From Clostridia bacterium (lineage in GTDB: Bacteria; Bacillota; Clostridia; Christensenellales; Pumilibacteraceae): DNA of 41,713 nt. The notes under the pieces were generated by a model. It was not told the origin of the DNA. It did no database searches and was given only the letters and a program-made list of their open reading frames with translations. The position numbers and the translations under genes were made by a program. This document shows, piece by piece, positions 36,085 through 41,617 of the stretch (the stretch's first letter is position 1; every line of letters begins with the position of its first letter). Where the stretch lies: positions 1 through 41,713 of the forward strand of contig JAFQMX010000030.1 in NCBI GenBank assembly GCA_017396125.1, written 5' to 3'.

Positions 36085-37149
36085 ATGGCAAAGAAAAAAC
36101 TTAATGCGTTTGACGTTATTGCTTGCGCGCTGGCATTGGCCGCGACTTTGTGTGTTTTTTTGAAGGCGATTGGTCAAGACGGCGATGGCTACACAGGAGT
36201 GGAAATCGTTTTTGGAGCAGAGTATCACGGAGTAAAAATTTTCGGATTTAATTTCGCTGCGTTCATCGCGTACTTTTTGCCGATTTTGGGGTTGGCTTTG
36301 ACCGTTCTCTCAGGCATTATTGGCAGTCGTGGTTTGGGCATAGGCGCAAGCATAGTGTATTTCTTGGCAATGATTATGATTGCAGTGTTCCCGATTTATT
36401 GGTATGATGCGGCGACCAAGGATTTTTATGACTTCTTTAAAGAACTGGAAGTAGAGATGCTTGCGGGTCCGGCGCTTGCTTTGTATGCCTGCGCATACGC
36501 CTTTGAATTTGGCATAATTGGTGCGGCTCTAAAATATGATTACGTAGAGGGAGAGGAATATCAGCAGGGCGAAATTTCACTAGGAAAGCTTTTTGGATTG
36601 AATATAGTAACTTTGGGCATTTATCAGTTTGTATGGATGCATCGCACGACTAGATTTACCAACGTATTGGAAGATGAGAAAAAGATGAACCCAACCACAC
36701 AGGTGCTTTTGTGCTGTTTCATCCCGATCTATTCAATATACTGGTACTACAAAAACGCACAAAAGATGGAATTGCTTTTTGCGAAAAAGGGTATGCGTGT
36801 AAAATGTGTTACTCTTTGTACGGTGTGCGCAATATTCGTGCCTATCGTTTCAATGCTCATTTTGCAGGACAAAATTAATAACGCTTGCTCTATCTACTGC
36901 ATAGATAATCTTATGGCGGACAGCAAATCGGATTCGACGGTTGAAGTAAAATCGGATTCGATGTTGGACGGCGTATTCGAGCTTGACGCTCCAAGCAAGC
37001 CAGCGCAAATTAGCGTGCAGCTCGAGCAAGTTGATGTGGAAAAAGAAAGCAACAAGGTTGATTTGCTTAAAAGATACAAAGAATTGTTGGATGCGGGAGT
37101 TATTACTGAGGAAGAATTCGAGCAAAAGAAAAAACAGCTTTTGAAGTGA
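36085..37149 (+). CDS. Membrane protein with DUF4234-like domain and C-terminal SHOCT motif
   Basis: Function unknown. Residues 1-150 form a four-helix membrane unit carrying GYTGVEIVFGAEYHGVKIFG and FNFAAFIAYFLP, shared with the next two genes. Residues about 165-275 resemble DUF4234 (LNIVTLGIYQFVWMHRTTRF and FIPIYSIYWYYKNAQKMELL), adding two or three more helices. A hydrophilic linker leads to a SHOCT motif (about 326-353, LLKRYKELLDAGVITEEEFEQKK), a short C-terminal oligomerisation or anchoring motif. The length is 354 residues. It has its own promoter and appears to be a fusion of a paralogue unit to two common accessory domains. Confidence 0.82.
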   Translation: MAKKKLNAFDVIACALALAATLCVFLKAIGQDGDGYTGVEIVFGAEYHGVKIFGFNFAAFIAYFLPILGLALTVLSGIIGSRGLGIGASIVYFLAMIMIAVFPIYWYDAATKDFYDFFKELEVEMLAGPALALYACAYAFEFGIIGAALKYDYVEGEEYQQGEISLGKLFGLNIVTLGIYQFVWMHRTTRFTNVLEDEKKMNPTTQVLLCCFIPIYSIYWYYKNAQKMELLFAKKGMRVKCVTLCTVCAIFVPIVSMLILQDKINNACSIYCIDNLMADSKSDSTVEVKSDSMLDGVFELDAPSKPAQISVQLEQVDVEKESNKVDLLKRYKELLDAGVITEEEFEQKKKQLLK

Positions 37150-37329
37150 TTTCTGATTTGTTTTTGCGCATTTTAATGAAAGGTATCTAAAAAGTTACAT
37201 TTTTATATATTTTAATGGTGTTTTTAAATAAGCACTGTGCAATTTTATAAAGCTATTACGGATTTTTCGCTTGCTTTTTTGATGGAATTGTGATAGTATA
37301 TTTATATCAATTTAAAGGAGTGAAGAATC

Positions 37330-37788
37330 ATGGACAAAAAGATGTTGAAAAAAGTTCTTGGTTACGTTGCAGTAGCTATGGGCGTGCTCGCTTTCTTGAT
37401 GATTTTCTTGAAGGCTGGCGGACTGGACGGAGAAGGTTATACCGGATTTGAAATTGCTTTCGGTGTAGAAGAGATGGGAGTACAGGTTCTCGGATTTAAC
37501 TTCCTTGCATTTCTTGCATATCTTCTTCCACTTGCAGGTGGCGTAGTTGCTCTTTTCGCTATGCTTAAGAATAACTCGTTGCTTTACTGGATCGCTGCTG
37601 GCTTATTCGTTGCTGGTGCAATTCTCGTATGCTTGTTGCCTACTTACTGGTACACTGCAGGTCATGAGATGATGAAGGATATGATGAAAGCGATGGATAT
37701 CGAAGTAATGATCGGTGGAGTTCTCGCAGTTGTATTCTCTGTTCTCGGCGCTGTAGCTTGCGTACTCAAGAACGTTTTGAAAGACTAA
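37330..37788 (+). CDS. Four-helix membrane protein, paralogue of the adjacent genes
   Basis: Function unknown. The 152 residues have four membrane helices and align end to end with the N-terminal part of the 36085 gene. Shared signatures are GGLDGEGYTGFEIAFG, GVQVLGFNFLAFLAYLLPLAG and LPTYWYTAG between helices 3 and 4. It lacks the DUF4234-like and SHOCT regions. AAAGGAG precedes the ATG, and a strong terminator follows, so it forms a single-gene unit. The codon choice (GCT, CTC, GTA) resembles that of the well-expressed protease and opp genes, suggesting that it may be abundant. Confidence 0.82.
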   Translation: MDKKMLKKVLGYVAVAMGVLAFLMIFLKAGGLDGEGYTGFEIAFGVEEMGVQVLGFNFLAFLAYLLPLAGGVVALFAMLKNNSLLYWIAAGLFVAGAILVCLLPTYWYTAGHEMMKDMMKAMDIEVMIGGVLAVVFSVLGAVACVLKNVLKD

Positions 37789-37807
37789 TTTTTAGCCAAG
37801 CAAAAAC

Positions 37808-37844
37808 AAAAAGACCTTGGTTTTTGTAAATCAAGGTCTTTTTA
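37808..37844 (+). terminator. Terminator after the second paralogue
   Basis: AAGACCTTG (37811-37819) pairs perfectly with CAAGGTCTT (37832-37840), flanked by A and T runs; probably bidirectional. Confidence 0.92.
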
Positions 37845-37845
37845 T

Positions 37846-37874
37846 TTTGCATTTTTTTTAATAAGTGTTATAAT
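37846..37874 (+). promoter_or_regulatory. Promoter of the third paralogue
   Basis: TTTGCA (37846-37851), 17-bp spacer and perfect TATAAT (37869-37874). The -35 abuts the preceding terminator. GGAGG lies before the ATG at 37903. Confidence 0.65.
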
Positions 37875-37902
37875 GATGCTAGTTCATTTTGGAGGATAGC
37901 TC

Positions 37903-38367
37903 ATGCGATTAAGGTTTTGGAAATTTTTTTCTGAGTATGCAGCGCCGGTTTTGGCGGCAATAGCGACCGTAACGATGTTTTGTGACGTAATCGAAATGAA
38001 GTTTTTTAACTTTACTGGTGCGGAGCTTGCGTTTGGTTGTAGCAAGGGTGGGTACCACTACCTGAATTTTAATATTATCGTATTTCTTGCGTATATGTGT
38101 CCGCTTGCAGGAGCAATAATAGCGATTATTGCCACGGTTAAAAACAAGCCTAATTTGCAGTTTTTAGCAGCAGGACTTATGATTGTGGGCGCAATTTTGA
38201 TGCTAATTATTCCTAACATTTGGTGCATGTTTGCCGACGGAATAGAGGTGAAAAAATATCTTGCTAGCTACAGCGTAAAGTTTTTGTATAGTGGAATAAT
38301 GGGCGTTGTTTGCGCGTTTCTCGGCGGTTTGTCCATGCTAGCTAGCTGTTTTATAAAGCTTAAATAA
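37903..38367 (+). CDS. Four-helix membrane protein, third paralogue
   Basis: Function unknown. The 154 residues share the same plan as the two preceding genes but are more diverged: FNFTGAELAFGCSKGGYHYL, FNIIVFLAYMCPLAGAI and IPNIWCMFADGIEV align with the signature blocks. It has several cysteines in or near helices that the paralogues lack. It has its own promoter, ribosome site (TGGAGGA) and terminator. Tandem duplication with divergence is the simplest origin for the three. Confidence 0.8.
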   Translation: MRLRFWKFFSEYAAPVLAAIATVTMFCDVIEMKFFNFTGAELAFGCSKGGYHYLNFNIIVFLAYMCPLAGAIIAIIATVKNKPNLQFLAAGLMIVGAILMLIIPNIWCMFADGIEVKKYLASYSVKFLYSGIMGVVCAFLGGLSMLASCFIKLK

Positions 38368-38570: not shown

Positions 38571-38834
38571 TTAATTCTTTTTTTTGGCAGAGTTTACGTA
38601 TTTCATCTGGGTGGAAATTCCCCCGCGAATATGTCTTTCGCTGAGGTTAAAATCCAAAATTTTCTTTACGCGCAGATATTTTTCGTGGTCAATGCGGGGT
38701 AATCTTTGGGACAGGTCTTTGTGAACGGTAGATTTGCTGACACAAAATACGGTTGATGTTTCACGAATCGTCGCTTTTGTTTTTAGGATATATTCGGCTA
38801 TCTGTAAGGTACGGAGTTCAATGTATTCTTTCAT
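38571..38834 (-). CDS. spoIIID: Sporulation transcriptional regulator SpoIIID
   Basis: Small mother-cell DNA-binding protein that switches gene expression between the sigma-E and sigma-K phases. The 87 residues include the conserved opening LRTLQIAEYILKTKATIRETS, the helix-turn-helix VFCVSKSTVHKDLSQRLP, and the basic C-terminal RHIRGGISTQMKYV. The length and sequence fit the family closely. It is transcribed divergently from copA with 150 bp between. Together with spo0A it indicates a spore former. The usual neighbours (spoIIQ, mreB) are absent here. Confidence 0.95.
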   Translation of the reverse strand: MKEYIELRTLQIAEYILKTKATIRETSTVFCVSKSTVHKDLSQRLPRIDHEKYLRVKKILDFNLSERHIRGGISTQMKYVNSAKKKN

Positions 38835-38922: not shown

Positions 38923-38951
38923 TTGACTAAAAAACTTTTTGGGTATATAAT
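38923..38951 (+). promoter_or_regulatory. Sigma-A promoter of copA
   Basis: TTGACT (38923-38928), 17-bp spacer and perfect TATAAT (38946-38951). Just upstream is TTAGC-ATTG-GCTAA (38906-38919), an inverted repeat that may be an operator. It does not match the CopY consensus TACAnnTGTA. Confidence 0.8.
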
Positions 38952-38984: not shown

Positions 38985-41465
38985 ATGAAAAAGAAATTTA
39001 CGGTGAGTGGAATGACTTGTGCCGCTTGTTCTGCTCATGTCCAAAAAGCAGTTAGCGCTCTGGACGGTGTAGACAAATGCGAAGTCAGCCTGCTGGGCAA
39101 CTGCATGACAGTCGAATGCCATGATATTACCGACGAGCAAATTATCGAGTGCGTCAAAAAAAGTGGGTATGGCGCTTCCGAATACCAGCTTAGCGCCTCC
39201 AAAGACGGACAAAATATTCAGTCCTTGCGCCGTAGGTTAGTGTGGTCGGCAATACTTCTCGTTCCGCTGTTTTACGTAACTATGCTGGCTATGCTCGGCG
39301 CGCCCCTGCCGTTTTTTATGAAAGGGCATTACAAGTGGATTAACGTGCTACTACAAATTACGCTGGTAGTACCGATAATGATAATTAACCATAAATACTT
39401 TAGCGTGGGTTTCAAGAGACTATTCAGCGCGTCACCTAATATGGATTCGCTGATAGCTATCGGCTCGTCAGCGTCGTTTTTGTACGGATTATTTGCGTTT
39501 GGTCAAATAATCGCGGGTACGGTGTCGCGTGATTGGGATTTAGTGCATAAATACGGCATGAATTTGTACTTTGATTCGGCGGGTATGATTTTGACTCTAG
39601 TTACGCTTGGCAAGTATTTTGAGGGCAAGAGCCGAGGCAAGACGGGCGACGCTATCGAAAAGCTGATTAACCTTGCGCCAAAAATCGCTACCGTAGTTGT
39701 GGACGGCGTGGAAATACAAAAAGAGACCTCTAATATCGAGGTGGGAGATATAATTAGGATTAGGCCGGGCGAGAGTATTCCCGTGGACGGAAAAATCACT
39801 TACGGTGGCTCGGCAATAGACCAATCGGCAATAACAGGCGAGAGTATCCCGGTTTATAAAACGGTGGGAGACAAGGTTGCATCGGGCTCGGTCAACACCA
39901 CGGGCGCGTTTTTGTACGTTGCGCAAAAGGCTTATCAGGACAGCACTCTTTCGCAGATAATCAGGCTGGTAGAAGAAGCAGGAAGCTCTAAAGCGCCTAT
40001 CGCAAGGCTTGCGGACAAGGTAAGCGGAATTTTCGTTCCTGCAGTAATCTTTATAGCGGTCGTTACGTTTGTCACCTGGCTGTTAGTAGGCAAGGGTTAC
40101 GAATTTGCGCTGTCAATGGCTATTTCGGTACTAGTAATTTCTTGTCCGTGTGCACTAGGCCTTGCCACTCCCGTAGCTATAATGGTAGGCACGGGAAAGG
40201 GCGCGGAAAACGGAATATTGATTAAATCGGCAGAAAGCTTTGAGCAACTTTCCAAAGTCGGCGCGGTGGTGCTGGACAAAACGGGCACTATTACTGCAGG
40301 CAAGCCTACGGTAACGGAGATTATTGCGTTGGCGGACGAAAACGAGCTTTTGACCTATGCTCTGACGTTGGAGCAAAATTCACAGCATCCGCTGGCTACA
40401 GCTGTGGTGGATTATTGCGAAAAAAGAGGGATTAAGCCTTTGCAACCGCAGGACTTTTTGAGCTATGTCAGCGGTGTTGAGGCGAGGATAAACGACCGCC
40501 GTTGCCTTTGCGGAAACACCGCTTTTATGGAAGAGCGTGGAGTTAACGTGCCTGACGCGGAGATTAGCCGACTTGCTGAGCAGGGCAAAACACCGCTTTG
40601 CTTTGCGATGGACGGAGATTTGGTGGGAATTATAGCGGTACGTGACGAGATAAAACCTACCAGTGCACGCGCGATACAGGAGTTTCACGATATGGGCATC
40701 GAGGTCGTTATGATGACCGGCGACAACGAGCTTACCGCAAAAGCCATAGCAAGCGAGATGAAAATTGACAGGGTTCTTGCCGGAGTGCTGCCACAAAACA
40801 AGGAACAAGAAGTTGCGCGCATTATGGAGGGTAAAATTACCGCTATGGTGGGCGACGGAATAAACGACGCACCTGCGCTTACCCGCAGCGACGTTGGCAT
40901 AGCGGTGGGAGCAGGCACGGACGTGGCGATAGATTCGGCGGATATAGTCCTCATGCGCAGCGACCTTATGGATGCGGTTACGGCAACGAAGCTCAGCAAA
41001 CGGGTTATGAAAATAATAAAAATGAACCTGTTTTTCGCCTTTATTTACAATATAATCGGTATACCGATTGCGGCTGGCGCATTTTATTACCTGCTGGGGC
41101 TCAAGCTCAGTCCTATGCTTGGGGCGGCGGCAATGAGCATGAGTTCGGTTTGCGTGGTCAGCAACGCGCTCCGAATAAGAAATTTCTCGCCAAACGGCAA
41201 AAACTCAAACAAATTTGTCAAAAACGCAAATAATAATAAAAAAATAATCAAGGAGAAGAATATGGAAAAAACTTTCGTGGTAAAAGGTATGATGTGTGAG
41301 CACTGCAAGGCTCGCGTGGAAAAGGCTCTTAATGCAATCGAGGGCGTTTCCGTCGAGAAAATTAATCTCAAGAAAAAAACGGTAACCGTCAGCGTTAACG
41401 ACCTCGTTACGCAGGATATGATTTCTACCGCTATTTCCGCGGCAGGCTACGAGGCTGAGTTTTAG
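38985..41465 (+). CDS. copA: Copper-translocating P-type ATPase with N- and C-terminal heavy-metal-binding domains
   Basis: P1B-type ATPase, probably exporting Cu(I). The N-terminal HMA domain has GMTCAACSAHV (C12, C15). TGES of the actuator domain is near 284, the membrane metal site CPC at 387-389, the phosphorylated aspartate D431 in DKTGT, SQHPLA near residue 467 and GDGINDAPAL later. After the last helices (ending about 735) an Asn/Lys-rich linker leads to a second HMA domain with GMMCEHC (C771, C774). A C-terminal HMA is unusual for CopA. A strong ribosome site plus ATG (41262) sits in frame exactly at its start. The length is 826 residues; the stop is TAG. Silver transport is also possible. 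Confidence 0.95.
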   Translation: MKKKFTVSGMTCAACSAHVQKAVSALDGVDKCEVSLLGNCMTVECHDITDEQIIECVKKSGYGASEYQLSASKDGQNIQSLRRRLVWSAILLVPLFYVTMLAMLGAPLPFFMKGHYKWINVLLQITLVVPIMIINHKYFSVGFKRLFSASPNMDSLIAIGSSASFLYGLFAFGQIIAGTVSRDWDLVHKYGMNLYFDSAGMILTLVTLGKYFEGKSRGKTGDAIEKLINLAPKIATVVVDGVEIQKETSNIEVGDIIRIRPGESIPVDGKITYGGSAIDQSAITGESIPVYKTVGDKVASGSVNTTGAFLYVAQKAYQDSTLSQIIRLVEEAGSSKAPIARLADKVSGIFVPAVIFIAVVTFVTWLLVGKGYEFALSMAISVLVISCPCALGLATPVAIMVGTGKGAENGILIKSAESFEQLSKVGAVVLDKTGTITAGKPTVTEIIALADENELLTYALTLEQNSQHPLATAVVDYCEKRGIKPLQPQDFLSYVSGVEARINDRRCLCGNTAFMEERGVNVPDAEISRLAEQGKTPLCFAMDGDLVGIIAVRDEIKPTSARAIQEFHDMGIEVVMMTGDNELTAKAIASEMKIDRVLAGVLPQNKEQEVARIMEGKITAMVGDGINDAPALTRSDVGIAVGAGTDVAIDSADIVLMRSDLMDAVTATKLSKRVMKIIKMNLFFAFIYNIIGIPIAAGAFYYLLGLKLSPMLGAAAMSMSSVCVVSNALRIRNFSPNGKNSNKFVKNANNNKKIIKEKNMEKTFVVKGMMCEHCKARVEKALNAIEGVSVEKINLKKKTVTVSVNDLVTQDMISTAISAAGYEAEF
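41262..41465 (+). CDS. Possible free CopZ-like copper chaperone from an internal start in copA
   Basis: AGGAG (41251-41255) lies 6 nt before ATG 41262, in frame with copA (residue 760). The product would be 67 residues, consisting of one complete ferredoxin-like HMA domain starting MEKTFVVKGMMCEHC and ending SAAGYEAEF. That matches the size and layout of CopZ, the cytosolic chaperone that delivers Cu(I) to CopA. The preceding copA codons (Asn/Lys-rich, AT-rich) look like a former intergenic spacer now read through. So the locus may make both a fused and a free chaperone. Expression of the free form is inferred from the start signals only. Confidence 0.6.
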   Translation: MEKTFVVKGMMCEHCKARVEKALNAIEGVSVEKINLKKKTVTVSVNDLVTQDMISTAISAAGYEAEF

Positions 41466-41494: not shown

Positions 41495-41524
41495 TTTACA
41501 ATTTGATGTCTGTTGTGTTATAAT
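41495..41524 (+). promoter_or_regulatory. Promoter of tRNA-Pro
   Basis: TTTACA (41495-41500), 18-bp spacer and perfect TATAAT (41519-41524). Transcription would begin about 10-12 nt before the mature tRNA. Confidence 0.7.
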
Positions 41525-41541: not shown

Positions 41542-41617
41542 CGAGGTGTAGCGCAGGTGGTAGCGCGCTTGGTTCGGGACCAAGAGGTCGTGAGTTCGAG
41601 TCTCGTCACCTCGACCA
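41542..41617 (+). tRNA. tRNA-Pro (anticodon CGG)
   Basis: A 76-nt cloverleaf with encoded CCA. Acceptor CGAGGTG pairs with CACCTCG. The D-stem is GCGC/GCGC. The anticodon stem CTTGG/CCAAG encloses TTCGGGA, giving anticodon CGG and reading CCG. The TTCGAGT loop has two wobble pairs in its stem. Confidence 0.95.

Follow-up and report, generated by a model that had tools for sequence, protein, structure and literature searches.

Our results suggest that a single copA gene of this Clostridia bacterium gives rise, in all likelihood, to two products, a fused copper pump and a free copper chaperone, the second by translation initiation inside the reading frame of the first; this reading rests on comparative evidence, without protein evidence. 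In this view, ribosomes starting at position 38985 of the window (the whole stretch of 41,713 nucleotides that was analysed) would produce a copper-exporting ATPase of 826 residues whose C-terminus bears a tethered CopZ-like domain, while 30S subunits binding the AAGGAG at 41250 on the same mRNA would start at the ATG at 41262, without change of frame, and yield this CopZ domain on its own, a free Cu(I) chaperone of 67 residues. The free chaperone would bring Cu(I) both to CopA and to the regulator of the copper response, and the tethered CopZ-like copy may have a regulatory or acceptor role of its own; these roles are inferred, as are the initiation and the stability of the small protein. The arrangement probably derives from an ancestral copA-copZ operon in which the copA stop codon would have been lost and the copZ ribosome binding site kept. 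The comparison of relatives shows that the fused frame and the internal ribosome binding site have both been kept by selection across many families.

The fused copA gene (38985–41465, forward strand) is an open frame that encodes a Cu(I) ATPase of the P1B type, bearing a single HMA domain at either terminus. In profile searches, CopA matches the copper-translocating P-type ATPase family TIGR01511 with 586 bits (cut-off 397) and the Pfam families E1-E2_ATPase, Hydrolase and, twice, HMA. Its translation contains the motifs CPC, DKTGT and GDGIND, and thus meets the criteria for membership of the P1B-1 Cu(I) ATPases. The N-terminal HMA domain (38997–39170, forward strand; PF00403, 51.3 bits) carries GMTCAAC and is of the CxAC type. 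A likely copA promoter, TTGACT-17-TATAAT, lies upstream (38923–38951, forward strand) and agrees with the consensus at 11/12 positions, a consensus match being its only support. Directly upstream of copA and divergent from it, this 1.1-Mb assembly has a gene for the sporulation regulator SpoIIID (38571–38834, reverse strand; TIGR02844, 112.3 bits, cut-off 111.5), and three consecutive small membrane proteins of 354, 152 and 154 amino acids, apparently paralogues as their N-terminal membrane segments are alike, are encoded at 36085–38367 (forward strand). Right after copA there is a tRNA-Pro (CGG) (41542–41617, forward strand), preceded by a strong promoter-like match at 41495–41524.

The last transmembrane part of CopA is joined to the C-terminal HMA domain by a linker of 28 codons (41178–41261, forward strand; residues 732–759), which holds the internal ribosome binding site. 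The Shine-Dalgarno (SD) sequence AAGGAG occupies 41250–41255 of the forward strand (AGGAG being 41251–41255) and is separated by the six bases AAGAAT (41256–41261) from the ATG at 41262–41264 (forward strand), which stands 33 nt before the first Cys codon of the CxxC motif and is in frame with copA (41262 − 38985 = 2277 = 759 codons). The initial annotation had proposed, within the fused copA, a free chaperone made by internal initiation, and the positions of AGGAG and ATG that it gave, their spacing, their frame and the 67-residue HMA domain at the end of CopA were all confirmed by the sequence, the open frame and the profile search. Its description of the linker as AT-rich, of low complexity and resembling a lost spacer held for the window genome, but the linkers of relatives are long, variable and often not of low complexity. 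Its central claim is supported, although the 67-residue protein itself is inferred and not shown.

The predicted free product, identical to the C-terminal HMA domain of CopA (41262–41465, forward strand; 67 residues, MEKTF...EAEF, with GMMCEHC), matches PF00403 with 50.6 bits (cut-off 24.8), a profile match that leaves its HMA identity beyond doubt, and meets the criterion for CopZ of an HMA fold of about 68 residues with MxCxxC. It passes TIGR00003, copper ion binding protein (64.9 bits, cut-off 62). Its best NCBIfam match is CopZ NF033794, aligned from residue 3, with 68.5 bits against a cut-off of 95, which is not passed, and NF047957 is likewise not passed (56.5 bits, cut-off 85). This 67-residue tail is therefore a CopZ-type HMA protein outside the named NCBIfam CopZ subfamilies tested (NF033794 and NF047957). 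Its PDB relatives are the CopZ structures 1cpz, 1yg0 and 2qif. Since the C-terminal HMA motif is CxHC in 155 of 163 fused loci, whereas the N-terminal domains are CxAC in 122 of 127, the C-terminal domain is closer to free CopZ than to the N-terminal HMA of the pump; MxCxHC defines a prokaryotic subgroup of CopZ (PMC7558416). Nevertheless, the production of a free 67-residue chaperone, its binding of Cu(I) in the cytosol and its delivery of copper to CopA are inferred from sequence alone, with no protein evidence.

Across 100 related genomes that were searched, CopA proteins with a C-terminal HMA domain proved common in the family and order of the window, with 38–54% identity, and nearly every such locus inspected has (A)AGGAG or GGAGGT, followed after 5–10 bases by ATG, before the C-terminal HMA. 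Further loci, which show this signal as well, were added, 80 of them named and belonging to GTDB genomes and 30 retrieved in a search over the whole class, spanning Lachnospiraceae, Oscillospiraceae, Christensenella, Selenomonadaceae, Phascolarctobacterium, Erysipelotrichaceae, Coriobacteria, a Treponema and a few odd assemblies; the named loci were picked by protein motifs of the last membrane segment and not by their SD. Culturable carriers among these loci are Christensenella intestinihominis (L120), Acetatifactor muris (L088), Parablautia intestinalis (L119) and Pseudoflavonifractor (L106 and L147). The main set comprises 163 fused loci, in which the window locus is counted once and some near-copies remain, and the SD was scored as a match to TAAGGAGGTGAT at a usable spacing before the start codon. 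An internal start codon is present in 162 of the 163 (ATG in 159, GTG in 3), and in 126 of these 162 its distance to the first Cys codon is 33 bases; where ATG has been lost, GTG with a strong SD stands instead (L105, L160 and L193, judged with an earlier SD scorer that missed overlapping matches). Loss of AGGAG and ATG in fused relatives, which would have refuted the initial annotation, is not what we observe, as the start is kept with an SD match of at least five bases in 149/163 loci (at least six bases in 125/163), leaving about 9% with a weak SD or none. In a phylum-wide sample, all 16 further fused loci, none of them used before, have the ATG and 13 of the 16 an SD of at least five bases.

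As controls, in place of genome-wide SD statistics, we took the in-frame ATGs that these copA genes contain in their ATPase body. Among these, an SD of at least six bases precedes only 36 of 3009 (1.2%) and one of at least five bases 140 of 3009, and for the stricter threshold the difference from the internal site is extreme (Fisher p ~7e-155), a value that, like all P values here, is nominal because the loci are related. The codon phase of the first G of GGAG is 2 in 106 loci, 0 in 27 and 1 in 3; therefore, it is the nucleotides that are conserved and not the amino acids, and linkers reading KE, GG, GE or GD all keep them. Lys-Glu is written AAGGAG in 84 of 100 cases at the site (84%) versus 115 of 592 elsewhere in the same genes (19%). 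Synonymous shuffles, in which the residues before the start were kept and codons drawn from the usage of each gene, gave 64.5 ± 5.2 loci with an SD of at least five bases (149 observed) and 33.3 ± 4.6 with at least six (125 observed). In addition, the 60-nt windows around the site are weakly folded (mean −3.7 kcal/mol, versus −14.8 for body ATGs), and folding remains about 3.9 weaker than at body ATGs even at equal G+C. The in-frame Met controls, the codon phases, the Lys-Glu codon choice and the synonymous shuffles together rule out chance or amino-acid constraint as the source of the SD. The comparison shows, therefore, that the internal SD and a start codon at functional spacing are kept by selection at the nucleotide level; that ribosomes initiate there is inferred. 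Among the fused genes, L077 has an in-frame TAA just after the internal start, within the C-terminal HMA, and is either decayed or wrongly assembled, and in L027 the linker is a tandem repeat of three copies (TTPDEACAL and like units), without an internal start.

Linkers range from 11 to more than 70 codons across loci and also vary in base composition and sequence. Across 160 homologous linkers there is no in-frame stop in 5446 codons, versus 328 and 451 stops in the other two frames; therefore, the fusion is selected too. In a FastTree reconstruction of 208 ATPase cores, whose root was not inferred, 164 fused genes and five split genes form one branch of 169 sequences (support 99), one further fused gene lying outside it, and the fused or non-fused state requires 7 changes over the 208 sequences. 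The Christensenella sequence (L120) adjoins L007 of G091, a locus from the order of the window, and from this neighbourhood the window is inferred to belong, probably, to Christensenellales. Fused genes with a weak SD or none are scattered in the tree (13 changes for 15 genes, scored with the earlier SD scorer). The clustering in the 169-sequence branch and the scattered losses of the SD therefore indicate that the dual arrangement has been long kept and lost now and then; this architecture is old and class-wide rather than a recent accident, a point that the initial annotation did not make. Among split relatives, a separate copZ with its own SD exists, and intermediates are found, one in which the copZ ATG overlaps the copA stop (L073) and three in which the SD lies within the end of copA (L076, L079 and L081).

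The initial annotation would also have been weakened by a separate copZ elsewhere. Using a profile of the C-terminal domain, no further CopZ-type gene was found in 45 genomes with a fused gene and an SD, 43 of them at least 90% complete. In the window genome the only HMA domains are the two of copA; however, this genome is 67.6% complete, so a separate copZ may lie in the missing part. Conversely, two genomes whose fused gene lost the SD (G035 and G070) each have a separate CopZ, with GMHCMHC and GMGCQHC, respectively. Among other genomes without the signal in their fused gene, G390 gave a strong match elsewhere, probably a separate CopZ, whose sequence was not read, and G089 has only two GMxCGMC-type proteins. 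Several genomes with a weak SD or none showed no other CopZ in the profile search, for instance those of L099 (G388) and of L124 (G387), the latter from a Bacteroidetes assembly. The strict rule that loss of the SD means a separate copZ was thus only partly true, being met by G035 and G070 and probably by G390, but not by G089, with its GMxCGMC proteins only, nor by the others. The trend linking SD loss to a separate CopZ fits dual output, although it rests on a small sample. A small HMA protein of another type, GMxCGMC, occurs in three of the genomes with an SD (G033, G091 and G075). A distinct small-HMA family with GMxCGMCExHVND, often with a C-terminal KKGLFS, occurs in the genomes of several relatives (L217, L218, L219, L221, L222 and L223). 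Many relatives also have a separate small HMA gene of the DLDCANCAAKME type (L224–L231) beside a second, zinc/cadmium-like P-type ATPase, and this pump and HMA gene represent a split arrangement.

Of the other explanations for the internal signal, the one that survives best, though we regard it as unlikely, is that a promoter within copA yields a shorter transcript, on which the internal SD and ATG direct synthesis of the free chaperone. It would give the same protein from the same start site, and E. coli copA reportedly uses differential transcript formation in addition to frameshifting (according to the title of Drees 2017, cited in PMC9548414). Against it, a consensus scan, which is weak evidence, found no promoter-like match on the forward strand from 40379 to the internal start (the last 880 bases), and linkers varying from 11 codons upwards make a conserved linker promoter unlikely; a promoter further upstream, in the ATPase part, is not excluded. 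Much less plausible is that the SD and ATG are a functionless relic of a separate copZ after a recent fusion. Split copA-copZ pairs with an SD in the gap or in the end of copA do occur in relatives, but the fusion is old (one clade of 169 sequences), and the linkers have diverged beyond alignment, yet the SD has held its proper spacing, occurs in more than one codon phase and exceeds what synonymous shuffles predict. It is also very improbable that the gene makes the fused protein alone, its C-terminal HMA being a plain second metal-binding domain or freed by proteolysis: the fused frame is clearly kept, with 0 stops in 5446 linker codons, but this leaves unexplained both the keeping of the SD and start at the nucleotide level and the lack of another CopZ gene in the 45 genomes. 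The signal could, lastly, be an elongation pause site, for instance for insertion of the last membrane segments, with an incidental ATG. It lies in all loci about 11–75 codons past the end of the ATPase core, and a slowing of ribosomes by SD-like sequences within genes has been proposed, but we give this little credence since a start codon stands at the right spacing in 162/163 loci, is GTG where changed, and lies in a context of low RNA structure and an A-rich stretch that resembles a start region.

Dual output from copA has a precedent in E. coli, in which a CopZ-like chaperone is made by programmed −1 ribosomal frameshifting (Meydan 2017; Drees 2017; PMC9548414, PMC10187127, PMC7558416). 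In both cases one copA gene would give a copper ATPase and a free CopZ-type chaperone, but in E. coli it is the N-terminal domain that is set free, through a frameshift followed by an early stop, whereas the chaperone of the window would be the C-terminal domain, in the same frame, from an internal start. Indeed, the window copA has no CCCAAAG slippery site, so it does not qualify for E. coli-type frameshifting, and where its N-terminal HMA ends it lacks an X_XXY_YYZ heptamer, the first lying at 39407; a frameshift of this type was rejected, as CCCAAAG is absent and the −1 products of the few heptamers are not chaperones. Elsewhere copZ is usually a separate gene (PMC10187127). The separate copA-copZ operons of Gram-positive bacteria such as Enterococcus hirae and Bacillus subtilis, like our split relatives, place a free HMA chaperone with its own SD beside copA; in contrast, the window gene has no stop between the two, and its chaperone doubles as the C-terminal end of the pump. 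Shorter C-terminal isoforms of several bacterial proteins, such as ClpB, IF2 and CheA, arise by internal initiation in frame. The copA signal, an SD and start codon within a reading frame, belongs to the same class of mechanism; it differs in concerning a metal pump and its chaperone over a wide bacterial range, and is not described in this way in the literature searched. No earlier report of internal initiation in copA or of C-terminal CopZ fusions was found in that literature, which left out most subscription papers, so novelty is unproven.

Dual output must be interpreted with caution, as there are no ribosome profiling, proteomic or reporter data and elongating ribosomes may reduce the use of the internal site. 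A bolder reading, which we hold to be probable, is that across Clostridia and neighbouring groups the internal copA start is the only source of the free chaperone, in an old dual-output gene whose tethered copy has a separate role, and that the same double product was independently reached by E. coli through frameshifting at the other end of the gene. Internal initiation in copA predicts a free copper chaperone, unlisted by gene finders, for a large bacterial group, from gut and environment, in which CopZ otherwise seems to be missing. As a start site that is unusually widely kept and recognisable by its sequence, it may offer a clean system for the tuning of initiation inside a translated frame. 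If true, it would represent a second, independent route by which one gene supplies a copper pump and its chaperone, working by another mechanism and at the other end of the gene than in E. coli, and would therefore suggest that the coupling of the pump and chaperone outputs is itself favoured.
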